Assembly: GCA_016234935.1 (NCBI GenBank)
Contig: JACRNL010000012.1
Coordinates: 1 to 52,172 of the forward strand
Origin: Deltaproteobacteria bacterium
GTDB lineage: Bacteria; Desulfobacterota; GWC2-55-46
DNA length: 52,172 nucleotides
Direction: 5' to 3'
Notes under the pieces: model-generated
Told to the model about the DNA's origin: nothing
Database searches by the model: none
What the model saw: the letters and a program-made list of their open reading frames with translations, nothing else
Program-made: the position numbers and the translations under genes
Part shown: positions 7,084 through 50,290 of the stretch, one piece after another
Layout of the letters: each line of letters begins with the position of its first letter
Position numbering within the stretch: the first letter of the stretch is position 1

Positions 7084-7160
7084 CCCGCTTAAAGCCCCCG
7101 CTTTAGCCTGCCCTCGAATGTTTCTATCGAGGGACACGCGAGGGCAGGCCTGCGGGGACA
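7084..7160. repeat. Palindromic repeat family B, copy 1
   Basis: Intergenic, after tpiA. Inverted arms built around CCTGCCCTCG and CGAGGGCAGG, with outer CCCGCTTTAG-type pieces. The same unit occurs at 21510-21562 (intergenic) and at 43296-43351 inside cbiD. Confidence 0.75.
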
Positions 7161-32500: not shown

Positions 32501-32552
32501 CCGAAAATATCATAAAACGCGCGGTTTTTCAGAGATGACCCCTTCCTTTTCT

Positions 32553-32624
32553 CCCCAGCACCACTTTCTTCCGCCGACGTTTGCGTTATGCGCGAACTCT
32601 TAGTAATGGAAAGTGGTGCTGGGG
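32553..32624. repeat. Palindromic repeat family D, copy 2, overlapping the modC 3' end
   Basis: Arms CCCCAGCACCACTTTC (from 32553) and ATGGAAAGTGGTGCTGGGG (32606-32624). Centre ACGTTTGCGTTATGCGCGAA. It encodes the last residues of ModC and supplies its stop codon. Confidence 0.88.
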
Positions 32625-37724: not shown

Positions 37725-38519
37725 TTATACGTCCCTGTATCCCCTCGGCGTTATCATGCCAAGCTCCGTTAAACTTGTAGCGGAGCTGCCTATAATGACG
37801 ATGGTCAGCATGTCTATGTCGTCGTAATGCGCGTCGAATGCCTTAAGGGGCACCGCCACGGCCCACTGGCCGGCGCGCGCGGCGTTTCTCACTATGCCTA
37901 CGGGGGTGTCGGGGCCTCTGTATGCGCGCACAACGGCAATCGCCTTTTTAAGCCCCTCGGTCCTTTTCGAGCTTTTCGGGTTGTAAAATATCATGACGAA
38001 GCCGGCCTTTGCCGCCGCGTTTATCCGCTCCTCTATGGTCTCCCAGGGGGTGAGAAGGTCGGAGAGAGATATGGACGCAAAGTCATGCATCAGGGGCGCG
38101 CCGAGGATGGCCGCGGCGCTTACGAATGCCGGTATGCCAGGAACGACCTCTATGGTGAAGGCCTCCGCCGAGCCCCCTCTGCGGCCCGCAAGCTGCAGAA
38201 CCAGCCCGGCCATGCCGTAGATGCCGGAATCCCCGGAGGAGACGACGGCGACTGTCTTGCCCGCGCCGGCAAGGTCTATGGCGAGCGAGCACCGGTCTAC
38301 CTCCTCGGTCATGCCGGATGTGCGCGTATCCTTATCCTTGATAAGCGCGGCGATAAGATTCACGTAGCGCGTGTAGCCTACGATGACGTCGGCCTCGCTG
38401 ATGGCCTCTTTTGCCCTGGGGGTAAGGTGCTCCAGCCCCCCGGGGCCGATGCCTACCACCGTGAGCTTACCCTTGCCGCCGCTACCGTGACCTTGTCTGA
38501 TTTCTGTTTTTTTATCCAT
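37725..38519 (-). CDS. cbiH: Cobalt-precorrin-3B C17-methyltransferase
   Basis: Methylates C17 and drives ring contraction of the corrin precursor. The 264-residue tetrapyrrole methylase has the N-terminal VVGIGPGGLEHLTP, VVSSGDSGIYGMA, VVPGIPAFVSAAA and MIFYNPKSSKRTEGL, the last characteristic of CobJ/CbiH. Its first 22 codons overlap the end of cbiG by 67 bases, so both are translated from one message. Last gene of the riboswitch-led cobalamin operon; no strong terminator follows. Confidence 0.93.
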   Translation of the reverse strand: MDKKTEIRQGHGSGGKGKLTVVGIGPGGLEHLTPRAKEAISEADVIVGYTRYVNLIAALIKDKDTRTSGMTEEVDRCSLAIDLAGAGKTVAVVSSGDSGIYGMAGLVLQLAGRRGGSAEAFTIEVVPGIPAFVSAAAILGAPLMHDFASISLSDLLTPWETIEERINAAAKAGFVMIFYNPKSSKRTEGLKKAIAVVRAYRGPDTPVGIVRNAARAGQWAVAVPLKAFDAHYDDIDMLTIVIIGSSATSLTELGMITPRGYRDV

Positions 38520-39574
38520 AATTTTTTTGCCTTCGCCGATAAAAGCGCCGCGGGTTCCGCCACAGCCGGACAGCCTGCGGCCTTGGCAACGAACGCCGAA
38601 GGCCCTGACGGCGGTTTTTTGGTTTTTAGAGTTGAGCTTGTAAAATATTCTATCGGGACATTTAAACTACGCGCGAAGTTTAAAAGCCCCTTTTCGTCAG
38701 CCTTTATGTCAATGGTCGCGATGTTCCTGATGCAGAGCATTGAAAGCCCCGCCGAGTCAAAGGCATTTTTTACAACGCGCCTGATCTGCGCCGCGCTCGC
38801 AAAGCGCCTGCAGCCGATGCCGACGGCGAACTCGCGCGGCCTCAGTATAAGAGTCCTATGCTCCGCCCCGTTTGGCAGGGCGGTATGCGCGCTGTTTGAG
38901 ACGATGACAAACGCCGATGCGTCTTTTATATCCCTTATCTCTTTTCCGGATGCCGGCTTTGATTTAAACGCGAAAACGCCCGCTCCCGCATACGCCCGCC
39001 GCATGGCGCTGAGCCTTTTAGCGTCAGCGTCAAATATGGAAACAGGGCCGCCGTTTAATATGGCGGCATTGACGCATTTTATCTTTTTTACGTCGCCAAA
39101 GGCCAGAGAGAACTTTTTGGCGATATCCTCAACGCACGGAAGCCCGGCGCCGTCCGTCGCCGTGGTTATCACGGGCGCCGCATCAAGGGCAGAGGCCGTC
39201 TCCCTTGCCAGTTCATTTGCCCCGCCGAGATGGCCAGATAAAAGACTTATCGCGAATTTGCCCTGATCGTCAACCACGACCACCGCCGGGTCGAGGTGCT
39301 TGCCCTTTAAGTTCGGCGCGACGGCCCGGACGGCTATCCCTGAGGCGCAGATGAAGATAAGCCCGCTGTAATCCCCGAAGGCCGCGTTGACCGTATTCAC
39401 TATGCCGCCATTTTTAAGCCGGGCAGGGGAAAACACCTTCAGACCTGTAAACCGCTTTTTCAGGCGCAGGGCAAGGGCGTATCCGGCATGCGTTACGGCG
39501 AACGCGGCCAGAGGGGGGGTGACCCCCTTCGACCGATTGGCATGGTTATAATCTTGTCCGCCCTTTTTCACCAT
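38453..39574 (-). CDS. cbiG: Cobalt-precorrin-5A hydrolase
   Basis: Opens the delta-lactone of cobalt-precorrin-5A with loss of acetaldehyde, a step specific to the anaerobic route. The 373-residue protein has the N-terminal CbiG domain (FICASGIAVRAVAP, LLSGHLGGANELA, ITTATDGAGLPCVEDIA) and the C-terminal CobE-like domain (AVGIGCRRFASAAQI, ending KSDKVTVAAAR). The N-terminus (SKGVTPPLA) may derive from a degenerate family A repeat. Confidence 0.92.
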   Translation of the reverse strand: MVKKGGQDYNHANRSKGVTPPLAAFAVTHAGYALALRLKKRFTGLKVFSPARLKNGGIVNTVNAAFGDYSGLIFICASGIAVRAVAPNLKGKHLDPAVVVVDDQGKFAISLLSGHLGGANELARETASALDAAPVITTATDGAGLPCVEDIAKKFSLAFGDVKKIKCVNAAILNGGPVSIFDADAKRLSAMRRAYAGAGVFAFKSKPASGKEIRDIKDASAFVIVSNSAHTALPNGAEHRTLILRPREFAVGIGCRRFASAAQIRRVVKNAFDSAGLSMLCIRNIATIDIKADEKGLLNFARSLNVPIEYFTSSTLKTKKPPSGPSAFVAKAAGCPAVAEPAALLSAKAKKLWIKKQKSDKVTVAAARVSSRW

Positions 39575-39691
39575 GTTGTCACTTGACCTTTTAATACCGC
39601 CCGGCTGTCCCGTAAGACACGGCGATGGTCTTCATTTTGTGGAATATCAAGGCCATGTATGCCTCAACCGCCCGCAGCAGGCCCTTCCGGT

Positions 39692-40471
39692 TCATTTCTT
39701 CCTGAAGCCGTGGCCAAAGCCGGGGGCGTAGAGCTTTGAGCATTCGCCCACGGCGCCGTCAAGCGCCCTGCCGACGATTATCATGGCCTGCCTTGAGATG
39801 CCTGCGGCCTTTACCCTGGCCGCGATGTTTTTCAAGTGGCCGGTTATCACGACCTCGTCCTTCCAGCTCGCCCTGTATACGGCCGCGGCGGGCGTGTCCG
39901 GGGGATAGCCTTTTTTAAGCTCACGCACGGTCTTGTCAATCATTCCGGCGCTCAGGAATACGCAGATGGTCGCCTGATGCCTGGAAAGGAGAGAGAGCTT
40001 CTCATTGGCTGGCGCCGGCGTCTTTCCCGGCAGTCTCGTGAAGATAACCGTCTGGCTGACGCCGGGCACGGTAAGCTCCCTTTTAAGGGCCGCCGCCGAG
40101 GCAAAGGCCGATGAGACGCCGGGGATTATCTCGTAGGGGACGTCTTGGGCCTCAAGAACGCAGGCCTGCTCGCGGAGCGCCCCGTAAAGCGCCGGGTCTC
40201 CGGTATGGAGCCTGACGACGCGCTTGCCTGAGCGCGCGCCGCTGACCATGAGGGAGGTTATCTCAGGAAGGGTCATAGGCGCGCTGTCGTGGATACGCGC
40301 AGCCTTGCGGCAGTATGCGAGCATCTTTTTTGAAACGAGAGAGCCCGCATAGATGACGATATCCGCCTTTTTAAGGGCGTTCATGCCTTTTACGGTTATA
40401 AGCTCCGGGTCTCCGGGGCCGGCTCCGGCGAATATGACCGGGAAAGGTTTTCTTGCGCGTATGTTTTTCAT
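39692..40471 (-). CDS. cbiF: Cobalt-precorrin-4 C11-methyltransferase
   Basis: Tetrapyrrole methylase acting at C11. The 259-residue protein shows FAGAGPGDPELITVKG, IVIYAGSLVSKKML (typical of CobM/CbiF), VRLHTGDPALYGAL, IIPGVSSAFASAAAL, and the substrate loop RLPGKTPAPANEKL. Its ATG overlaps the stop of cbiL (40468-40471). A 117-base gap separates it from cbiG. Confidence 0.94.
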   Translation of the reverse strand: MKNIRARKPFPVIFAGAGPGDPELITVKGMNALKKADIVIYAGSLVSKKMLAYCRKAARIHDSAPMTLPEITSLMVSGARSGKRVVRLHTGDPALYGALREQACVLEAQDVPYEIIPGVSSAFASAAALKRELTVPGVSQTVIFTRLPGKTPAPANEKLSLLSRHQATICVFLSAGMIDKTVRELKKGYPPDTPAAAVYRASWKDEVVITGHLKNIAARVKAAGISRQAMIIVGRALDGAVGECSKLYAPGFGHGFRKK

Positions 40472-41196
40472 TTTTTGATTATCACCGTTGAAAAATAGTC
40501 CGGGCTTGCTCCCTTGAGGCTTTTAATGTCCGTTACGACCTCTTCATCCGGCCAGCTTGCGCGGGAGACGAAGACGGCGTTTTTTTCAAGCCCCATCGAG
40601 CAGAGCAGGCCGATGAGCGCGTCCATGGCCCTGTTCACCTTCATGAGGACGACCGTATCATTGGCGGCGATGCGCTCACGCAGGTCTTCGATGTCATAGG
40701 CCGCCGGAATAATGGCCACCTTCCCGCCTGATTCCGCGAGCGGGATAATTGCCGAGGCCGCCGCCGCCGAGAAGGACGTAACGCCGGGTATTACCCTTAC
40801 CGGCGCATCAGGCAGCAGTTTCCTGACAAATGGCACGAGGTAGCTGAATGTGGAATAGAGCATCGGGTCTCCGAGGGTTATGAAGGAAACGTCAAGCCCC
40901 TTTTCAAGCCGCCCGGCAATGGCGGAGGCCGCGGTTTGCCGCGCCTCTTTAAGGCGCGCCGCGTCCTTTGTCATGGGCAGGAGGAGCCTCAGTATCTCCT
41001 TTCCCTTCAGCTCCGCGCCCTTTGACGCTATGGAAAGGGCGCGGCTTGCCGCGTCCGGCGCGGCGCCTGCGGACTTTGGCACGGCGATGACGGCGGAGCC
41101 TTCAAGGACGCGCACGGCTTTCAGCGTCATAAGCTCCGGATCGCCGGGGCCTACGCCCACGCCGTAAAGCGCGCCGTTTTTAACGGATTCCGTCAT
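40468..41196 (-). CDS. cbiL: Cobalt-factor II / precorrin-2 C20-methyltransferase
   Basis: Methylates C20 after cobalt insertion. The 242-residue protein shows YGVGVGPGDPELMTLKA, LLLPMTKDAARL (substrate-binding, typical of CobI/CbiL), FITLGDPMLYSTFSYL and VIPGVTSFSAAAA. It overlaps the cbiET stop by 4 bases (ATGA at 41193-41196), so the two are translationally coupled. Confidence 0.94.
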   Translation of the reverse strand: MTESVKNGALYGVGVGPGDPELMTLKAVRVLEGSAVIAVPKSAGAAPDAASRALSIASKGAELKGKEILRLLLPMTKDAARLKEARQTAASAIAGRLEKGLDVSFITLGDPMLYSTFSYLVPFVRKLLPDAPVRVIPGVTSFSAAAASAIIPLAESGGKVAIIPAAYDIEDLRERIAANDTVVLMKVNRAMDALIGLLCSMGLEKNAVFVSRASWPDEEVVTDIKSLKGASPDYFSTVIIKK

Positions 41197-42476
41197 GGTT
41201 TCGTCCCTGTTATTATAAAGACCGGATTATTCGCGCTGAAAAGGTTCAATCCGCCGCGAATGTCAACGCCGCGCGTCCGCGAAATATTTATCATCAGCAT
41301 CTCTTTTTCGATGCCGCCTTTCTTGAAAAAATCAAAGGCGCGGGATGCGGTTTCAATCGTGACGGCGTTCACGACGATGCGTCCGCCTTTTTTTATTTTT
41401 TTAAGGACGAATGCCAGAATTCCAATGATATCCGCGCCGCCGCCGCCTATGAAGGCCGCGTCCGGCGCGGGCAGGACGCCGCGCGCAAGACACCCGGGGG
41501 CCTTGCCGCTTATGACTTCAATATTATGCGCGTTGAAACGCCGCCTGTTGCGTTCTATCTGCCTGACCCTTGCCGGTTTTTTTTCTATCGCATAGACCCT
41601 GCCGCTGACCGCGAGGCGCGCGGCTTCAATCGCTACGGAACCTGACCCGGCGCCTATGTCCCATACGACGCTCTTTTCGCCAAGGCGGAGCTTGGCCAGG
41701 CTCACCACGCGGATCTCCTCCTTCGTTATCATGCCTTTTGAATGGGCAAACGCCGCGTCAGGTATGCCGAAGGCAACCCCTTCTCCCCTTCGGGGAGAAG
41801 GCTGGGATGAGGGAGGGACAGCCGCCTCTTTTTTGATAAGGATGAGGATATTGAGCGGCGCGAACTTTTTCCTGCGGCTAAGGGCGGCAAGGCTTGGCGT
41901 TGATATCTTTTCGTCCTTTGTTCCGAGGGCCTCGCAGACATATGCCGCATAATCCGCGGCGGCGCGTTTGCCGTGCCGGCCCCTGAGGAGGGCGCGGGCT
42001 ATCACCGCGGGGCTGTTTGCCGGGTCGGTGAAGATTGCGGCCTTTTCGCATTTGGATATCTCGCCTGCGAGCGCCTCAACGGACGCATTCCTCCCGTGCG
42101 CGCTGAGCACCCTGACGTTGTTTGAGCTTTCTTTAATGCGCGCAAAGGCCTCCTGAACCGTGCTTATGTTCGGGATGACGCGCACCGCCCTTTTTCCGAA
42201 GGTCTTTACGATAAAGCCGCCTATGCCGAAGAGGAGCGGGTCGCCCGTCGCGATGACCACGGCGTTTTTGTTCCCCCCGCCCTTTACGTGCGCGCGGATG
42301 GCGGCGGCAAGCGAGTCAAGACCGCTGGTTATGGGCAGCTTTTTGGCCTTAACCTCGGCGAACTCGGCAAGGTGCCTTGCCCCGCCCGCGATAAGACCGG
42401 CCCCGCGTATAAGCCGGACCGTCTTGTCGGACAGGCTGTCTTTGCCGTCCGTCCCTATGCCGATTACGTAGATCAT
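41193..42476 (-). CDS. cobL: Precorrin-6Y C5,15-methyltransferase (decarboxylating), CbiE-CbiT fusion
   Basis: Methylates C5 and C15 and decarboxylates the ring C acetate. The 427-residue protein fuses CbiE (about 1-215: VIGIGTDGKDSLSDK, IATGDPLLFGIGG) and CbiT (about 240-427: SKGMITKEEIR, VVWDIGAGSGSVAIEAA, FIGGGG). The linker at about 218-233 contains PPSSQPSPRRGEG, encoded by a short palindromic repeat. That the repeat lies between the two domains explains why it is tolerated. Confidence 0.93.
   Translation of the reverse strand: MIYVIGIGTDGKDSLSDKTVRLIRGAGLIAGGARHLAEFAEVKAKKLPITSGLDSLAAAIRAHVKGGGNKNAVVIATGDPLLFGIGGFIVKTFGKRAVRVIPNISTVQEAFARIKESSNNVRVLSAHGRNASVEALAGEISKCEKAAIFTDPANSPAVIARALLRGRHGKRAAADYAAYVCEALGTKDEKISTPSLAALSRRKKFAPLNILILIKKEAAVPPSSQPSPRRGEGVAFGIPDAAFAHSKGMITKEEIRVVSLAKLRLGEKSVVWDIGAGSGSVAIEAARLAVSGRVYAIEKKPARVRQIERNRRRFNAHNIEVISGKAPGCLARGVLPAPDAAFIGGGGADIIGILAFVLKKIKKGGRIVVNAVTIETASRAFDFFKKGGIEKEMLMINISRTRGVDIRGGLNLFSANNPVFIITGTKP
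41776..41821 (-). repeat. In-frame palindromic repeat (family C) in the cobL linker
   Basis: TTCTCCCCTTCGGGGAGAAG hairpin followed by GCTGGGATGAGGGAGGG. A similar C/T-rich palindrome is at 36768-36800. It encodes SSQPSPRRGEG. Confidence 0.75.
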
Positions 42477-42484
42477 TTATTTAC

Positions 42485-43645
42485 TCAGCAAACGCAGACT
42501 ATGTCGTTGCTGTATCCCGCGAGCACGCACTGGAGGGCAAAGCCCTTGCCGGTTATCCGCGCGGCATTTTTTTTGACCAGCGCGCAGACGGCCTTTAATA
42601 CCGCGCCGCAACCGGATGCCTTTAAGATAAAAAAGACCTCCCGCGCGGTGTTGGCGTTTTCGACCTTTTTAATTATGGCCGGCGGCGCGGCGAGCTCTCT
42701 GCAAAGACCGGCAAGAAAGGCAAGCTCTACACTCGCGTCAGAGCAGTGCGTCTCAAAATGTCCGGCGGCGAGTTTTGAAAACTTCGCGAACTGTCCGGCA
42801 ATCACGGCCTTCCTGAGCAAGGGTCTGCCCAATGCGTCTTTAAGCGCATGGCCCATGTGGTCGCCGGTAAGTATGAAGGCCGTCTCCGGCAGGTCATTCA
42901 TGGCCTTTTGAACGGCCTTTTCAGTGCTTCTGCCGGTGGAATAGACTAATACCGAACAGCCGTTGGCAAGGGCCACGTCAACGCCGAGGCTTATCGAGTG
43001 ACGGTAGGCGCTTAGCGACATCGGCTCTACGATGCCGCTCGTTCCAAGTATGGAAATGCCGCCGGTAATGCCAAGGCGTGGGTTCATCGTCTTAAGCGCG
43101 AGCCTTTTACCCTCAGGCACCGAGACCGTAACGACGGCCGAGGTGGTTTTAACGCCCGCTTCCCTGGCCGCTTCGAGAACGGCGCGCTTTATCATGGCAA
43201 GCGGCACAGGGTTTATGGCGGGCCTGCCGGGCCGTATCTTCAGCCCCGGCCTTGTCACCATGCCCACCCCTTCGCCGCCCTTTATGACGACCTTTCCCCG
43301 CTTCAGCCTGCCCTCGCATGCTTTAAGCGGGGGGCACGCGAGGGCAGGCGGCGTTTTGCGGCTTTCAGGCACAAGCTCAACTTCGGTGACTATCTCGGCG
43401 CCGTTCGTCACGTCCGGATCGTCGCCTGCGTCTTTTACGACAGTTGCCACAGCCCTGTTTTCAAAGACCCGCACGGTCTTTATTTTAATATTAAGGACAT
43501 TTCCTGACGGGAGCGTTACCAGCACTGTTTTGACAATCAGCCTTCCGGGCAGGGCGAAGACGGCCATCGCCGCGGCCTTTGCCCCTGCCGCCGCGCATGT
43601 GCCGGTCGTAAAACCCTTTTTAAGCGTTTTCCCGGTATCACGCAA
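42485..43645 (-). CDS. cbiD: Cobalt-precorrin-5B C1-methyltransferase
   Basis: Methylates C1 in the anaerobic route. The 386-residue protein starts KKGFTTGTCAAAGAKAAAMA, the CbiD signature, and has GGEGVGMVTRPGL, ISILGTSGIVEPMS and ILTGDHMGHAL. Residues about 98-117 (PALACPPLKACEGRLKRG) are encoded by an in-frame family B palindrome inserted before the GEGVG segment. The start TTG at 43645 is the only sensible one after an in-frame stop; AGGAG is rather far upstream. Confidence 0.92.
   Translation of the reverse strand: MRDTGKTLKKGFTTGTCAAAGAKAAAMAVFALPGRLIVKTVLVTLPSGNVLNIKIKTVRVFENRAVATVVKDAGDDPDVTNGAEIVTEVELVPESRKTPPALACPPLKACEGRLKRGKVVIKGGEGVGMVTRPGLKIRPGRPAINPVPLAMIKRAVLEAAREAGVKTTSAVVTVSVPEGKRLALKTMNPRLGITGGISILGTSGIVEPMSLSAYRHSISLGVDVALANGCSVLVYSTGRSTEKAVQKAMNDLPETAFILTGDHMGHALKDALGRPLLRKAVIAGQFAKFSKLAAGHFETHCSDASVELAFLAGLCRELAAPPAIIKKVENANTAREVFFILKASGCGAVLKAVCALVKKNAARITGKGFALQCVLAGYSNDIVCVC
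43296..43351 (-). repeat. In-frame palindromic repeat family B in cbiD
   Basis: CCCCGCTTCAGCCTGCCCTC, CATGCTTTAAGCGGGGGG and CACGCGAGGGCAGGC. Same unit as at 7084-7160, whose minus strand could also encode PALACPxxxxxEGRLKRG. Adds about 18 residues to CbiD. Confidence 0.85.
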
Positions 43646-43657
43646 AGGCTGGCTGAT

Positions 43658-44062
43658 TTAAGACTCCTGAATTGGCAATGGCCTGTTTTTTAGAAGAAGC
43701 CCCAAAATTATCCCGAGGATTACGGCAAGGAAAAAACCCTGCACAGTCTGCGGCGTCACGATATTGTAGCGAGCTGGCTCCATCTTGGAAAGCATCGCCC
43801 CGCCAAGGCGCAGGACTACCCATACAGCCGTTGTGACCATGACGGCCTTTAACGCAAGGCTTTTAAACGGCAGCCTCGCCTCCACCGCGCAAAGCAGCCC
43901 GCCTGCGACCGCGCCAAAGACCGCGCCCGCAACGGCAAAGGTAACCAGATTGTGCGGAAAACTGCCTTCGAACATGAAGGCTCCGCTAACGCTGTTCACA
44001 AACATTGCCATCCAGCCCCATATGACGCCGCCGGCAATACTTAGAACGAATTTTTTAATCAA
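43658..44062 (-). CDS. Four-helix membrane protein, candidate cobalt transport partner of CbtB
   Basis: A 134-residue inner-membrane protein with about four helices (IKKFVLSIAGGVIWGWMAMF; HNLVTFAVAGAVFGAVAGG; AVMVTTAVWVVLRLGGAM; GFFLAVILGIILGLLL). It starts with TTG at 44062, with AAGGAGGA four bases upstream; a longer frame would overlap cbtB. It stands where cbtA stands in other CbtAB pairs but is shorter than the usual CbtA, and I cannot confirm homology. Position in a cobalamin-riboswitch operon suggests cobalt transport. A CbtA-unrelated protein is the alternative. Confidence 0.65.
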   Translation of the reverse strand: MIKKFVLSIAGGVIWGWMAMFVNSVSGAFMFEGSFPHNLVTFAVAGAVFGAVAGGLLCAVEARLPFKSLALKAVMVTTAVWVVLRLGGAMLSKMEPARYNIVTPQTVQGFFLAVILGIILGLLLKNRPLPIQES

Positions 44063-44075
44063 TGCGTCCTCCTTG

Positions 44076-44249
44076 TTAATGACACGGCATTCCGATGGTA
44101 TGGCGGAAATCATGAAAGGTGTCATGCGCGCCTCTTGCGACGGAGTCCCAGCCGTAAGTCATGGTCACCATCGTAAAGGCAAGCCCCGCGATTATTAGCG
44201 CCGGAAGCACGGTCTTTAACAAAAATTCCCTCTCCAGGATTCGTTCCAT
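44076..44249 (-). CDS. cbtB: CbtB-like small cobalt transport subunit
   Basis: A 57-residue protein too short for most gene callers. It has AAGGAGG eleven bases before the ATG, one membrane helix (about 13-32: VLPALIIAGLAFTMVTMTYG) and a C-terminal His/Cys tail, AHDTFHDFRHTIGMPCH. That tail is the hallmark of the CbtB family of B12-regulated cobalt transporters, where it is thought to bind the metal. Lies between the porin and the four-helix protein, with 13 bases to the latter's start. Confidence 0.88.
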   Translation of the reverse strand: MERILEREFLLKTVLPALIIAGLAFTMVTMTYGWDSVARGAHDTFHDFRHTIGMPCH

Positions 44250-44281
44250 TTCAGTAAAACCTCCTTTTTTAACGTCATTTT

Positions 44282-45583
44282 TTAAAAGTACGCCTGCAGT
44301 CTCATGCCGTAGATAAAGAGTTTATTCTGTTCCCTGTCTCCGCCGGGGTTGATAACGTACTGGACGTCCGGGGTCACGTAAAAGCCGGTGTTGTCCTTTG
44401 CGCCGTCAATGGCTATGTTGTAGTATGCCTCGAGGTAATGCTCAGCCGCCGGCTTGAAGTCGGCGCTGCTGCCGGCTTTAAACTCCTTATAGTCCTTGCC
44501 GATAAAATCCGCGCCGTAGCCGAAACCGGCGTTGTCATTCGGGCGAGAGGCGAAGGGGCCGCTGAAGTTCAGTCCGCCGCCAAAAAACCTGCCGAACTGA
44601 GCGACCTTTTCCCGCTGCGTGCCTGCCCTGAGCCATACGCCCAGAAGGCTTGAGATCGACTGGTCAAAGCTTATGCCCGCGCCCTGGTTGGCGGCCCGTG
44701 AAAGCCGGGCGTCCGCCGGATTCGCGGCGCTGAGTTCATCAGGCCTGCCCTGCCGGTTCCAGTAGTAAAAACGGTATTTGCCTTCCTTTCCGGCCGGATT
44801 TAATTTCAGATCAACCTCGGCCATGAAAAAGGGGCTGTTGAAGGTATCGTTAAAATTGCCCTTTCCTTCAAAAGCGCCAACGGTAATACCAAGGCTGTCG
44901 TTCGGCTTGCACGTGGCCCTTATGCCCGGGCCGTAGAAATCGGCCGTGCCGCCGAACTCTATGGCGGGATTATTGACGAAAAGGTTCGCAAGGAACTGCG
45001 ACCTCTCTGTGTTGGCATACGCATTCGTGTCGAAGTATGCCGTAGGGTCGAGCTTGCCCACCGTGAAGGTCAGTTTTTTATTCACGTTGTGCTCGTAATA
45101 TATCTGCGCGAGGTGAACGTTGTCATTGTTAAAGGACTCAAGGTCGTTATTCGGCCCGGTGGGGTTGGCGTTGGGCTGGGTTGCAAAGGGCGGGAGGTTG
45201 CGCATGCCCGCGCCCATCTGCACGTCGAATACGGCGGCCGCCCTGCCGTTTTCGCCCACATGCGACTCAAAGGCAAGGTCTGCGGACAAGGCCGCCGCGC
45301 CCCTCTGCGGACCGGTCTTGGCGTGCGTGCTCCCCTGTGCCGTCGTTGTAAGGCCGCCGCTTATCCTGAGGCCGTAGATGCTGTGTATCGGATGGAGCTT
45401 GTGCCCAAGTTCGTTGAGCACCTCTTTTTCGCTCATCTGCTGCTCAAGCTTTTCAATGCGTTCACGGAGCTGGCGCAACTCGCCGGACGAGGACGCCTTA
45501 TCCGCATCCGGCCTTTCATCGGCCAGCGCCGGCGCGCTTGCGAGCATCAATGCCGCTGCCGCGAGAAGAAAAAATCTTTTCAT
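44282..45583 (-). CDS. Outer-membrane porin with N-terminal coiled coil
   Basis: A 433-residue protein with a signal peptide (1 to about 21, LAAAALMLASAPALA), a short coiled coil (about 32-55, LRQLRERIEKLEQQM) and a C-terminal beta-barrel of alternating strands ending in aromatic YGMRLQAYF, as outer-membrane proteins do. It resembles OprB-like or related porins, but the exact family is unclear. ATG 45583 is chosen as it starts the signal peptide and has GAGAGG upstream. Its place inside a cobalamin-riboswitch operon suggests passage of cobalt or a cobalt complex across the outer membrane. Confidence 0.8.
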   Translation of the reverse strand: MKRFFLLAAAALMLASAPALADERPDADKASSSGELRQLRERIEKLEQQMSEKEVLNELGHKLHPIHSIYGLRISGGLTTTAQGSTHAKTGPQRGAAALSADLAFESHVGENGRAAAVFDVQMGAGMRNLPPFATQPNANPTGPNNDLESFNNDNVHLAQIYYEHNVNKKLTFTVGKLDPTAYFDTNAYANTERSQFLANLFVNNPAIEFGGTADFYGPGIRATCKPNDSLGITVGAFEGKGNFNDTFNSPFFMAEVDLKLNPAGKEGKYRFYYWNRQGRPDELSAANPADARLSRAANQGAGISFDQSISSLLGVWLRAGTQREKVAQFGRFFGGGLNFSGPFASRPNDNAGFGYGADFIGKDYKEFKAGSSADFKPAAEHYLEAYYNIAIDGAKDNTGFYVTPDVQYVINPGGDREQNKLFIYGMRLQAYF

Positions 45584-45624
45584 TCGACACCTCTCAGTGT
45601 TTGAAGTTGTTTGCGGCGGACGGT

Positions 45625-45906
45625 TTAATATTCGTTGAACTTCCATGCCTTCATTATTTTGGTCTTTTTGTCAAAGGTCAGCTGCAGAACGTTGTCTATG
45701 GCGTTTTCCCGTATGCTGGTCGCGGTTTTGCCGTTCCATGTGGCTATAAAGACATCATTACCCTCAAGCATGGAATCCGGCGCGCCCCACTGCTTCAGCG
45801 CGCCGTCGTAGGTCAGTTTGCCCATGTTGCGGTCAAGGCCCTTCTCCATCGCGCTTGCGCAGCCGAAGACAAGGAATATCAGGAAAACAAGTAAAACCTT
45901 TTTCAT
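45625..45906 (-). CDS. Small lipoprotein of the cobalamin/cobalt operon
   Basis: A 93-residue protein starting MKKVLLVFLIFLVFGCASA, a signal peptide with a lipobox-like VFGC. AAGGAGG precedes the ATG. The remaining 75 residues (MGKLTYDGALKQWGAPDSM, then IATWNGKTA) resemble the small SmpA/OmlA-like or DUF fold lipoproteins, but no family can be assigned. It sits between cbiO and the porin gene with gaps of 27 and 41 bases, so it is cotranscribed and may assist the porin. Confidence 0.75.
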   Translation of the reverse strand: MKKVLLVFLIFLVFGCASAMEKGLDRNMGKLTYDGALKQWGAPDSMLEGNDVFIATWNGKTATSIRENAIDNVLQLTFDKKTKIMKAWKFNEY

Positions 45907-45933
45907 TTGGCCTCCTTTTAATGATGAATTCGT

Positions 45934-46746
45934 CTATTCATGCTCGTCGTGTGTCGCGAACGGGCCGTGGCTGTGTATGTGGATAACATCGCCATGCCTG
46001 TGCGTGTGCTCGTGGATGATGTTCGCCCGCAGCAGCAGGTCTTTATCCCTGAGTATCGCGGCGCACGAACCGTCCGCCGCAGCAGTATGGGATTCGTCAA
46101 GGACTATCGCCCTGTCGGCGAAGTCCTGGACGAGGCTCAGATCGTGCGTTGCCATTATGACGGTCTTTTTAAGGGCTTTAAGGCTCCCCAAAAGCTCAAA
46201 CAGCCACACCTGCGTCCTCGGGTCAAGCCCGTTCGTCGGTTCATCAAGCAAAAGCACGTCCGGATTTACCGCGAGCACCGACGCTATGGCGACCTTCTTT
46301 TTCTCGCCGCTTGAGAGCGTGTGCGGCGCGCGTTCCTTCAAAGCCGATATGCCGAGCATCTCGAGCAGGTCTGCAACCCTTTTTCGCGCCTCTGCCGCCG
46401 GTATGTCCAACTGAAGGGGGCCGAAGGCGACCTCTTCAAAAACCGTGGGGCAAAAAAGCTGCACGTCCGGCTCCGGGAAGACGAAGCCGACCCTCTCGCG
46501 GAAACATCTTAATAAGCCGTGCTTCAGCGTCTCTTCCGTAATGCGCTCGCCGAAGAACTCAACGCGGCCAACGGATGCGAACTGCAGGCCGTCTAATATC
46601 TTTAAAAGCGACGACTTGCCGCTCCCGTTAGCCCCGAGTATGGCGAGGCTCTCCCCGGCATTTACAGTAAAACTGATGTTTTTTAGCGCGGAATAAGTCC
46701 CGTATGAATAACCGACGCCTTCGAGTTTATAGACCTGTCCGGCCAT
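45934..46746 (-). CDS. cbiO: Cobalt ECF transporter ATPase CbiO
   Basis: Energises the CbiMQO cobalt importer. The 270-residue protein has the Walker A GANGSGKSS, the Q-loop region FPEPDVQLFCPTVFEEVAFG typical of cobalt/nickel ECF ATPases, the signature LSSGEKKKVAIA, the Walker B DVLLLDEPTNGLD and a His in ATHDLS. The C-terminal tail (about 245-270, HEHTHRHGDVIHIHSHG) is His-rich and probably binds metal. ATG 46746 with AAGGAG before it is preferred; the longer frame to 46788 reads repeat DNA. Confidence 0.94.
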   Translation of the reverse strand: MAGQVYKLEGVGYSYGTYSALKNISFTVNAGESLAILGANGSGKSSLLKILDGLQFASVGRVEFFGERITEETLKHGLLRCFRERVGFVFPEPDVQLFCPTVFEEVAFGPLQLDIPAAEARKRVADLLEMLGISALKERAPHTLSSGEKKKVAIASVLAVNPDVLLLDEPTNGLDPRTQVWLFELLGSLKALKKTVIMATHDLSLVQDFADRAIVLDESHTAAADGSCAAILRDKDLLLRANIIHEHTHRHGDVIHIHSHGPFATHDEHE

Positions 46747-46753
46747 TGGCTCC

Positions 46754-46795
46754 TTAGCAGGCTGACCAGATTTTAAGTTTTTCCGCAACCTGTTA
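46754..46795. repeat. Partial copy of repeat R between cbiQ and cbiO
   Basis: Its minus strand, TAACAGGTTGCGGAAAAACT then AAAATCTGGTCAGCCTGCTAA, matches the left end of the R copy at 4785. It directly abuts the AAGGAG ribosome binding site of cbiO. Confidence 0.75.
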
Positions 46796-47650
46796 AAAAC
46801 CGACGCTTAAAAAAAACACGAAAAAGGCGGCAAAAAGCCATATGTAGTCGCGTTGCCGCAGCCCCTCGCCGTCGAACGTCTTGACCTGCCCTGTAAAGCC
46901 CCTTGACGCCATGGCCCCCATGACGTCTTCTGCCATGTCGAGCGACTTCTTTAAAAAAAGCGCCACCCTTGAAGCGAACCACCTCTGGTTCTGGCTCTGG
47001 GACTGCCTGAGGCCGGCCCTGCTTATGAGCCTTGACTTCTTCGCAAACGCCGCGTCCTCGGCCATCTTCAGCAGTATGAAGATGTAACGGAAGGTCATAA
47101 AAAGCGCTGTCACGAAAAACTGCGGCACAGGCAGACGCCTGAGGCCCCTGAAAAGGTCCGTCTGCCTCGTGGTAAGCGCGAGAAGCGCCGTCAAGGCCGT
47201 CATTGCCGTGACCCGCGCTATGATAAAGACCCCTGCCTTAAAGCCCGCGTTGGCCATGAAAAAGACCGGCGCGATTATCACGGCGGTGAACGCAAAGGCC
47301 GGCATGACCCTTTTAACAAGCACCGCCGGAGGCACGCGCGACGCAAAAGCCAGAACAGCCGTCAGCAGTATGATGCCGCCGAGCATTGCCGGATTTTTCG
47401 TTATCGCCGCGCCCATTATCACGGAACATATCCCGGCTATGCGTGAGGCCGGGTTGAGCCCTTGCAAAAGGCCGGGCCTTCCGGCGCATTCCTCGGAGTC
47501 AAGGAGCCTTGCCGCTGCCGAGGCAATATTGGAAAGTGTCTTTGCCAGAAAAGGCTCTGTTCCATCTCCTTTACCCCGCGCATCCCTTGTTGAGCAGGGC
47601 TTGTCCCGCGCTTCTTTAAACCACGGCGGGATGCCTGTTATTTGCGCCAT
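46793..47650 (-). CDS. cbiQ: Cobalt ECF transporter transmembrane protein CbiQ
   Basis: T-component of the cobalt importer. The protein has about 285 residues, five to six membrane helices (about 70-215 and 260-283) and the coupling segments TLFMTFRYIFILLKMAEDA and MGAMASRGFTG, which contact CbiO. The N-terminal 65 residues before the first helix are longer than usual. The start ATG 47650 lies within the end of cbiM (the two overlap by 13 bases), indicating translational coupling; 47662 is an alternative. Confidence 0.9.
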   Translation of the reverse strand: MAQITGIPPWFKEARDKPCSTRDARGKGDGTEPFLAKTLSNIASAAARLLDSEECAGRPGLLQGLNPASRIAGICSVIMGAAITKNPAMLGGIILLTAVLAFASRVPPAVLVKRVMPAFAFTAVIIAPVFFMANAGFKAGVFIIARVTAMTALTALLALTTRQTDLFRGLRRLPVPQFFVTALFMTFRYIFILLKMAEDAAFAKKSRLISRAGLRQSQSQNQRWFASRVALFLKKSLDMAEDVMGAMASRGFTGQVKTFDGEGLRQRDYIWLFAAFFVFFLSVGF

Positions 47651-48669
47651 ATCCTGCCCCACAGGTAAACGGCAAGGATAACCCCGGCGCTGCCCGCCGT
47701 TGCCGCGATGACATAGCCCGCTACGGAGCCGAGCCGCTCGCCAAAGACGGCATTAAGGCCTTTTATGCCGTAAGAAGGCATGACGCCTGTCCACATTTCG
47801 CCAAGCCTGTGCATACCCGCTGGAACGTAGCCGACGAGGCCGGCGAGTTCGCCCTTACCCCATTCGCCCCACGGCGTGCCGGTGGCGACGAGACCCAGCG
47901 GCGTTAATATTATCATAATCGCGAGTAAAATCCAAAGGGGTTTTAGGCTGCCGCCCGCGCCGCCGGCCGCATGGAGCATGGCGCTGTCCGTCCTGTGGAT
48001 GAACGACACAGCCAGCGCCGTTCCAAAGGCCTCGACAGGCCCGAATATCAAAAGATGCGGTATCATCATGGCGGGCAATGCTATGGAAAGCGGATAAGGC
48101 GCGTAAAGAGGCCTTCCGAGGGCGTCGGCCGCCACGAGCGGCTGAATGCCCAGCTCCATGGCCGCCGCGAAGGCCGCGATATTCACCGCGACATAGGCCC
48201 CTATTGCCGAGGCGATGACCCTTCTAAGCCTCCCGGCATCCCCCCGAGGGGGCTCAGCCCCTTGAAGGGGTTTGGCCCCTGCCGAGATAAGACGGTATGT
48301 ATAGTAGCCGCCGAATGACATCAGCGCCGCCATGTTAAAACAGTTGGCGGCAAGGGTCGTTATCCCGCCGTCGCCGAAGAAAAATGCCTGAAGCGAAAGC
48401 GCGAGAGTCAGCGCTATGACCGCTGCCCACGGCCCGAGTATTATGGCCATTAGCGTGGTTGCCGCCATGTGGCCGGAGGTGCCGCCCGGCACCGGTATGT
48501 TGAACATCATTATAACGAAGGCAAACGCCGCGCCAAAGGACAGGAGCGGAAGCTGTTTTAATTTAAGCGCCCGCTCGGCCTTCCTCGCGGAAACGAACCA
48601 GACCGGAGCCATCCCGGCGTAGAAAAGAGCGCATGTCGCGGGGCTTAGGTATCCATCGGGTATATGCAA
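47638..48669 (-). CDS. cbiM: Cobalt ECF transporter S-component CbiM (CbiM-CbiN type fusion)
   Basis: Binds cobalt for import. The 343-residue protein starts M-HIPDGYLSP: the His after the initiator Met is a cobalt ligand. It has ALSLQAFFFGDGGITTLAANCFNM and further helices (six to seven in all), then a C-terminal CbiN-like part (about 230-343). The initiator is TTG at 48669. An in-frame family A repeat (about 130-143, KPLQGAEPPRGD) lies in a loop between helices. Confidence 0.93.
   Translation of the reverse strand: MHIPDGYLSPATCALFYAGMAPVWFVSARKAERALKLKQLPLLSFGAAFAFVIMMFNIPVPGGTSGHMAATTLMAIILGPWAAVIALTLALSLQAFFFGDGGITTLAANCFNMAALMSFGGYYTYRLISAGAKPLQGAEPPRGDAGRLRRVIASAIGAYVAVNIAAFAAAMELGIQPLVAADALGRPLYAPYPLSIALPAMMIPHLLIFGPVEAFGTALAVSFIHRTDSAMLHAAGGAGGSLKPLWILLAIMIILTPLGLVATGTPWGEWGKGELAGLVGYVPAGMHRLGEMWTGVMPSYGIKGLNAVFGERLGSVAGYVIAATAGSAGVILAVYLWGRIWRK
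48240..48279 (-). repeat. In-frame palindromic repeat family A in cbiM
   Basis: On the minus strand AAACCCCTTCAAGGGGCTGA with GCCCCCTCGGGGG. Encodes KPLQGAEPPRGD. Confidence 0.9.
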
Positions 48670-48683
48670 TTACGTCCTGCCTT

Positions 48684-49748
48684 CTATGCCGGTTTATACT
48701 TCCTTTCATTGGCAAGTATCGCAAGGGCGTTGGCTATGGCGGCCGCGACGGTCGAGCCGCCCTTTCTTCCTGTTGAGGCAATGAACTCAAGGCCGGAGTT
48801 CATCAATTCCTCTTTTGACTCCGCCGCGCCGACAAAGCCCACCGGCACGCCTATGACAAGGGCGGGGCGCGGCGCTCCGCCGCGCGTCAACTTCAATAAT
48901 TCCACAAGCGCCGTCGGCGCGTTGCCGATGACGACAACCGCTTTGTCCATGAAGGGTGCGGCCTTTTGCATGGACGCCGCCGTCTTTGTCATGTTCTTCT
49001 CAATCGCCGCGGCGGCAACGTCCGCGTCCGCTGAATAACAGACCACCTTCACGCCAAGACCCTCAAGACGCGCCCCTGTTATGCCGGCCTCGGCCATCCT
49101 GACGTCGGTTATTATCCGCGCCCCGCCCTCTAAGGCCCTGACCCCGGCCTCGATGGCGCGCGGGCTGAAGCGGAGGATGTCTTTGTAGTCAAAATCCGCC
49201 GTTGTGTGAATAACGCGCTTGACCACGCTGAGCTCGCCCTCTGAAAAGGCGGTCGGCCCAAGCTCCCGGCCGATGATGCGCAGGCTTTCTTTTTCTATCG
49301 GATGCTGCTCCGGCCTTTTTTGAACTGTTTTCGCAGTGGCCCCCTGAGGGGGTTCAACCTCACAGCCGAGCCTCTCAAGGACTATTTCGATAAGTTTATC
49401 ATGAAAACCGAGATTCGGCGTGATGCCGACCTTTAATCCGGGATGCCTTTCCTTTGCGGCGTTCAACTCCCCGGGTATGTCCGACGTCACGTGCGCGCCG
49501 GAGTAGAGAAAATACGGCATGACCGTTATCTCGTCAAACCCCTTTGCGGCGATGATGTCAATGGCCTCCGATATGCCGGGCTTTTCTATCTGCAAAAAAG
49601 CTGGCATGACAAGCGCAAGGCCGGTCTTTTCCTGCACGGCTCGGGCGACAGTCCTCAGCGTATCGTTGGCGCCTTGGAGCTTTGAGCCGTGGCCGAGCAG
49701 AAGAACGGCCTTTTTACCGTTTTTAGCGCAATCCGCATGATTTGTCAT
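48684..49748 (-). CDS. CbiX-CbiC fusion: sirohydrochlorin cobaltochelatase / cobalt-precorrin-8 methylmutase
   Basis: A 354-residue bifunctional protein. Residues about 12-128 are a short CbiX chelatase that inserts cobalt into sirohydrochlorin, with metal-binding His in LLLGHGSKLQG and GAHVTSDIPGEL. Residues about 145-354 are CbiC, which moves the C11 methyl to C12 (catalytic His in RVIHTTADFDY, GNAPTALVELLKL, PVGFVGAAESKEELM). The linker (about 129-137, VEPPQGAT) is an in-frame family A repeat. First gene after the cobalamin riboswitch, with AAAGGA before the ATG. Confidence 0.93.
   Translation of the reverse strand: MTNHADCAKNGKKAVLLLGHGSKLQGANDTLRTVARAVQEKTGLALVMPAFLQIEKPGISEAIDIIAAKGFDEITVMPYFLYSGAHVTSDIPGELNAAKERHPGLKVGITPNLGFHDKLIEIVLERLGCEVEPPQGATAKTVQKRPEQHPIEKESLRIIGRELGPTAFSEGELSVVKRVIHTTADFDYKDILRFSPRAIEAGVRALEGGARIITDVRMAEAGITGARLEGLGVKVVCYSADADVAAAAIEKNMTKTAASMQKAAPFMDKAVVVIGNAPTALVELLKLTRGGAPRPALVIGVPVGFVGAAESKEELMNSGLEFIASTGRKGGSTVAAAIANALAILANERKYKPA
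49340..49361 (-). repeat. In-frame palindromic repeat family A in the CbiX-CbiC linker
   Basis: On the minus strand GAACCCCCTCAGGGGGCC encodes EPPQGA exactly between the two enzyme domains. Confidence 0.88.
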
Positions 49749-49792: not shown

Positions 49793-49833
49793 CAAAAAAA
49801 TACCCTCCTCTTTGTTTCCAAAGGGAGGGTATC
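49793..49833 (-). terminator. Terminator of the cobalamin riboswitch
   Basis: Minus strand TACCCTCCCTTTG and CAAAGAGGAGGGTA form a strong stem with a GAAA loop and are followed by seven T. It stands between the aptamer and the first gene and is the probable expression platform. Confidence 0.88.
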
Positions 49834-49899
49834 TTGAGTTGATGGCGGAAATGTCATCAAAAGACCCTCACCTTCTTTACAATCGAAGAGTGCGTGAGG

Positions 49900-50150
49900 C
49901 ATATCCGGGCCGGTCTCCTGACTTGCGGTTCATCCTACTCTCTCAGACCTTCCCGGCATTTTGCCAGTGGCCTTAAACAGAGATTTCGTCCCGCTTACAG
50001 TGGCGTGTCCGTTCCCGATTCTCCCCAGCACCACTTTGCATCGCCAAGAGTTCATGCGTAATACAAACATTGGCAGCGGAAAGTGGTGCGGGTGATCACG
50101 GGATTCCCGATTCCCCCGTAAAGAGGGAACACCCGGATACATCAGTTTAG
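49900..50150 (-). promoter_or_regulatory. Cobalamin (AdoCbl-type) riboswitch, with a repeat inserted in the L5 loop
   Basis: On the minus strand the conserved blocks appear in order: GGTGTTCCC and GGGGGAATCGGGAA, P5 TCCCG/CGGGA, ACGGACACGCCACTGTAAGC, GCCACTGGCAAAATGCCGGG followed by AAGG, and the B12 box AAGTCAGGAGACCGGCC. Loop L5, which should read about UGAGAAU, is interrupted by 70-odd bases of repeat D. It controls the cobalt-uptake and cobalamin operon that ends at 37725. Confidence 0.92.
50023..50096. repeat. Palindromic repeat family D, copy 3, inside the riboswitch
   Basis: Arms about 24 bases: CCCCAGCACCACTTTGCATC (from 50023) and GGCAGCGGAAAGTGGTGCGG (50072-50091). The centre GAGTTCATGCGTAATACAAA matches copy 1 in orientation. 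Confidence 0.88.
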
Positions 50151-50290
50151 GTCATAGATTTACATGATTAAGGCAAGGTGTCAAGCTGAAAGGAAGAAGC
50201 TGTCACGCCGGCCGCTGTCCTTGACGACGGCCGCGATTCAGCCGCGCCGGCTAAAAAAGGCCTGCCTTTCGGCAAACCCGGTAATTCCAT

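Follow-up and report, generated by a model that had tools for sequence, protein, structure and literature searches.

A cobalamin riboswitch that looks intact with a dispersed-palindrome copy in its P4 T-loop

A study from 2007 (Barrick and Breaker, PMC2258182) already described helices that interrupt the T-loop of P4 in cobalamin riboswitches, so that structural variation at this point of the aptamer is known. The locus reported here has the same aptamer and the same base-paired interruption of the T-loop, and differs in that its helix can be traced to a dispersed palindrome, whereas the 2007 study describes its insertions as nonconserved stem-loops and does not appear to trace their origin. 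The other close precedent is a BOX element of Streptococcus pneumoniae found between two T-box riboswitches, in a leader that seems still to regulate (PMC3049150): there too, a mobile-type palindromic repeat is transcribed within a riboswitch leader, but the BOX element lies between two complete T-boxes, whereas the repeat described below sits inside the loop of a single aptamer. A literature search for mobile elements inside an aptamer loop returned only this case and general reviews of MITEs. What is new here is the repeat origin of the insert in L4 (the P4 loop) and its recurrence in relatives; the tolerated point itself was already known.

The window, i.e. the whole stretch of DNA analyzed (52,172 nucleotides), belongs to a deltaproteobacterial genome of 2.15 Mb in 15 contigs. 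A covariance-model search identified a cobalamin riboswitch (RF00174) on the minus strand at 50151-49891, with a score of 102.9 bits (E 2.4e-25; the RF00174 gathering cut-off is 31.5 bits) and a match over the full model (1-189). All 189 positions are aligned, in agreement with the original prediction that the conserved aptamer blocks, including the B12 box (AAGUCAGGAGACCGGCC), are intact; the B12 box and the P4 T-loop UGA..GAGAAU of the four-way junction are aligned with high posterior probability. The genome has a second cobalamin riboswitch (116.5 bits), upstream of cobO, with a normal loop. In the aptamer under study, the segment around P4 reads GGGAA-UCCCG-UGA[...]GAGAAU-CGGGA, and the relevant elements are the following.

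49891..50151, minus strand: aptamer of the cobalamin (AdoCbl-type) riboswitch (RF00174 match)
50099..50103, minus strand: P4 5' arm, UCCCG (covariance-model alignment and MFE fold)
50018..50098, minus strand: L4 T-loop UGA...GAGAAU, 81 nt, whose outer UC/GA pairs match those of relatives' hairpins (covariance-model alignment, loop comparison)
50024..50093, minus strand: copy of a dispersed 70-nt palindrome in the P4 loop (genome copies aligned with their flanks; fold)
50013..50017, minus strand: P4 3' arm, CGGGA (covariance-model alignment and MFE fold)
50002..50010, minus strand: P5/L5, GG-ACACG-CC, the uninterrupted kissing loop (covariance-model alignment; L5-L13 covariation)

L4 comprises 81 nt instead of the canonical 7, which bears out the predicted insertion of about 74 bases of repeat. 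Together with the P4 arms, its minus-strand sequence is UCCCG-UGA-UCACCCGCACCAC...GUGGUGCUGGGGA-GAAU-CGGGA, the insertion point lying between nucleotides 3 and 4 of the T-loop. Folded alone, the insert gives a long hairpin with -33.6 kcal/mol (z -4.1; none of the shuffled sequences was as stable), and P4 is closed in the MFE structure. This insert is one of about 37 copies dispersed in the genome, as expected of the mobile-type palindrome that had been proposed.

The loop that is interrupted is not the one first named. The original prediction placed the repeat in L5, and this assignment was rejected on the basis of the covariance-model alignment, which puts the insert in the P4 T-loop, and of the pairing of a whole L5 with L13. 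Indeed, in the covariance-model layout P3 is followed first by the interrupted arm and then by the L5 hairpin; since it is the first arm of the junction and carries the T-loop sequence UGA..GAAU, the interrupted loop is L4. The proposal that the insert extends its host arm stands, except that this arm is P4 and not P5. A T-loop contact that joins L4 to L6 organizes the four-way junction P3-P6, and regulation involves the L5-L13 kissing loop (reviewed in PMC10907184). The latter contact, which had been thought to be interrupted, is preserved in that L5 (ACA) is complementary to L13 (UGU), over a 3-bp core only. Among 37 distinct related switches, 33 have ACC:GGU, one has ACC:GGC and three, including this one, have ACA:UGU, while the mismatched combinations (ACA with GGU or ACC with UGU) occur in none of the 37. 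Judged by sequence, ACA:UGU is thus a compensated version of the ACC:GGU pair of relatives. The other two ACA:UGU switches belong to genomes from another family of the order (G035 and G038), so the double change may predate the insertion; it is therefore better taken as a sign of integrity than of later selection.

Downstream from the aptamer, we found a complete expression platform followed by cobalt and B12 genes.

49866..49899, minus strand: P13/L13, CCUCAC...UGU...GUGAGG, with the L13 UGU at 49879-49881 (fold -10.8 kcal/mol; kept in relatives)
49861..49869, minus strand: antiterminator 5' strand GAGGGUCUU, overlapping the P13 3' arm (segment fold -21.1 kcal/mol)
49825..49835, minus strand: antiterminator 3' strand AAGAUACCCUC, overlapping the terminator 5' arm (segment fold)
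49794..49832, minus strand: intrinsic terminator ACCCUCC(C)UUUG...AGGAGGGU, then a U run (fold -21.0 kcal/mol)
48684..49748, minus strand: fused cbiX-cbiC gene, with which the operon starts (PF01903 and PF02570)
37725..48669, minus strand: rest of the operon, namely cbiM, cbiQ, an ABC ATPase, an OprB-like porin, cbiD, a tetrapyrrole methylase and cbiG (ORFs, Pfam)

The folds show P13, the antiterminator and the terminator competing for the same bases. The terminator that had been predicted to follow the aptamer is thus present (a simple terminator scan missed it, probably owing to its bulge), and Pfam matches for cbiX-cbiC, cbiM, cbiQ, cbiD and cbiG confirm the 12-kb cobalt/B12 operon said to be under the control of the switch. 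A promoter scan detected no promoter. Regarding the operon itself, a single protein combines CbiX and CbiC and has relatives, many of them near full length, in 50 of 59 related genomes, and the OprB-family porin (44282-45646, minus strand) within this gene run might provide an outer-membrane route for cobalt or a cobamide.

With P13, antiterminator and terminator each in place, the cobalt/B12 operon most likely has an ordinary OFF-switch here. Our main reading, to which we give a probability of roughly 0.8, is a functional, transcription-attenuating cobalamin OFF-switch bearing a palindrome copy in the family's variable hairpin atop the P4 T-loop. The palindrome would have landed in that hairpin and would fold by itself as an extended P4a arm, leaving P4, L5 and the binding core unchanged. 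When cobalamin is bound, L5 would kiss L13 and P13 would form, taking up GUGAGG; with the antiterminator thereby lost, the terminator before cbiX would form and the operon would be OFF. When the ligand is absent, GAGGGUCUU would pair with AAGAUACCCUC and the operon would be read. The switch looks intact despite the palindrome, and the insert is probably close to neutral, albeit much longer than the usual arm; the kinetics of folding or transcription could change.

To examine the insertion point in orthologous switches, i.e. those located upstream of a cbiX-cbiC ortholog, we crossed riboswitch and protein searches. A few of the 110 rows (e.g. L140, L147 and L151) were left out, L4 having been parsed wrongly in them. 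L4 measures at least 19 nt in 25 of the 28 parsed orthologs (the exceptions are L126, L110 and L129) and usually forms a short hairpin, such as UGGUCCGCGCAGGCGGAGAAU, with a loop length of typically 19-25 nt; the outer UC/GA pairs of these hairpins are still there around the palindrome. As a hairpin occupies exactly this position in 25 of 28 orthologs, L4 qualifies as a peripheral variable arm, and it is in such an arm that the covariance-model alignment places the repeat, an outcome that the original prediction had itself named as contrary to its reading. An alignment scan returned 30 loci, the close ones from uncultured Deltaproteobacteria MAGs, largely from groundwater, and none recognizably from the window's genus; an earlier contig scan for relatives, using one protein, found nothing. 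The search turned up no genome of the same genus, hence no direct empty site for the insertion in the window. The orthologous switch L129 (G057:C23), whose L4 is normal, has a strong hairpin, CCCCCACACC...GGTGTGGGGG, within the P13 stem region. Paired cobalamin riboswitch matches, 100-200 bases apart on one strand, occur at G031:C4, G024:C74, G037:C82, G039:C10, G040:C113 and G042:C269, from which tandem cobalamin switches seem frequent in the class.

Repeats are also found in the switches of relatives. In G023, L4 of the orthologous switch measures 211 nt, compared with 46 nt in the sister genomes G017 and G009, and most of the insert can be assigned to a dispersed family that is matched dozens of times in G023, G017, G009 and G028. 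In front of cobO, L4 measures 152 nt in G029 and 149 nt in G018, as opposed to an empty 5-8-nt L4 in same-genus genomes (G004, G024, G014, G027 and G021 for G029; G010 for G018); both inserts are members of another dispersed family, of which G029, G004, G024 and G018 have many copies. The L4 point has thus received, with the window's, four insertions from three unrelated families of dispersed palindromes. Insertion into L4 is therefore recurrent, and the three cases in relatives suggest that mobile repeats can land there harmlessly: L4 would seem to be a point at which mobile hairpins arrive repeatedly and are tolerated. A fourth dispersed family is found in a different peripheral hairpin, on the P6 side, where a 150-nt palindrome lies in a G011 switch (L138/L212, G011:C8:25846-26168) upstream of a gene that we take, from a reading of its sequence, to be thiC-like.

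These observations bear directly on the suggestion that the switch is broken or locked. Splitting the L4 T-loop would weaken the L4-L6 contact, whose docking organizes the core (PMC10907184), and leave the operon constitutively on or off; the insert is recent-looking (94% identity to its nearest copy) and exceeds the normal arm length of the clade, which would fit this view. However, a hairpin at the same point is the rule among orthologs, three relatives have even longer arms (149-211 nt), and the UGA/GAGAAU T-loop bases, P4, L5, L13, P13 and the terminator are all kept. Nothing points to locking, and we regard a broken switch as improbable.

Somewhat less probable still is co-option, in which the long P4a arm would tune the cobalt/B12 operon, for instance by pausing transcription, by binding a protein or by offering a site to RNase III. 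It would fit a stable hairpin within a leader, and repeat elements of pneumococcus are transcribed together with riboswitches (PMC3049150), but this copy has drifted like the others, with no special conservation, and the short hairpins that relatives have in its place are unrelated. Convergence, whereby a native P4a hairpin (those of relatives at L4 are indeed unrelated) merely resembles the palindrome, can be dismissed, as many unlinked copies match the insert, its loop as well, at 92-94% identity over 69-72 nt (E down to 1e-24).

The L4 inserts suggest a concrete source for the variable arms of riboswitches, as well as a natural map of added-hairpin tolerance in a folded RNA, useful for riboswitch engineering. 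To our knowledge, variable insertions have traditionally been shown as blank arms, their origin unstated. A broader version is more doubtful: unrelated mobile palindromes would land repeatedly in the P4 T-loop of cobalamin riboswitches, perhaps via insertion at, or growth from, the centers of existing hairpins, and the variable insertions of riboswitches would largely be the remains of mobile repeats.

The palindrome, with ends CCCAGCACCACTTT / AAAGTGGTGCTGGG in copies aligned with their flanks, has weak relatives in four more of the family's genomes and two further copies in the window.

32552..32624, plus strand: palindrome copy, 78% identity
28755..28822, minus strand: palindrome copy, 80% identity

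Its scattered, similar copies suggest that it is, or was, mobile. Like MITEs and REP-like palindromes, it is short, multicopy and palindromic, with terminal inverted repeats and no evident coding capacity. It differs in that the genome has no match to the Y1 (RAYT) transposase PF01797, which matched in 5 of 14 control genomes, so that RAYT mobilization was rejected. As to direct target duplication, no consistent one was seen in the flanks of the copies. Inverted repeats are more frequent there than direct ones, GAG...GAG being found only at copies inside another repeat. Beyond the CCC...GGG ends of unlinked copies, the inverted-repeat run averages 2.56 bp, compared with 0.78 bp in shuffled pairs (0 of 20000 shuffles), for 27 copies, excluding the riboswitch copy and most copies with shared flanks; all 34 copies were run too. 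With inverted repeats this common in the flanks, copies often lie at the center of a larger palindrome, which could be explained by insertion into hairpins or by fold-back copying at the ends. At L011, L012, L021 and L153, unique flanks form perfect 5-11 bp inverted repeats with no spacer, as if these copies sat at palindrome centers or had been extended by fold-back copying. Copies also combine with other repeats: L005, L006, L008 and L009 lie within another dispersed repeat, AGGCGTCGAG...CAGCAGCCTG, and L018, L019, L023, L024 and L027 (1400-1560) have a second palindrome, GCCTGCCCTCGC...GCGGGG, nested in the loop at nearly the same point. A related repeat is found in the window at 7096-7149 and 43296-43349.
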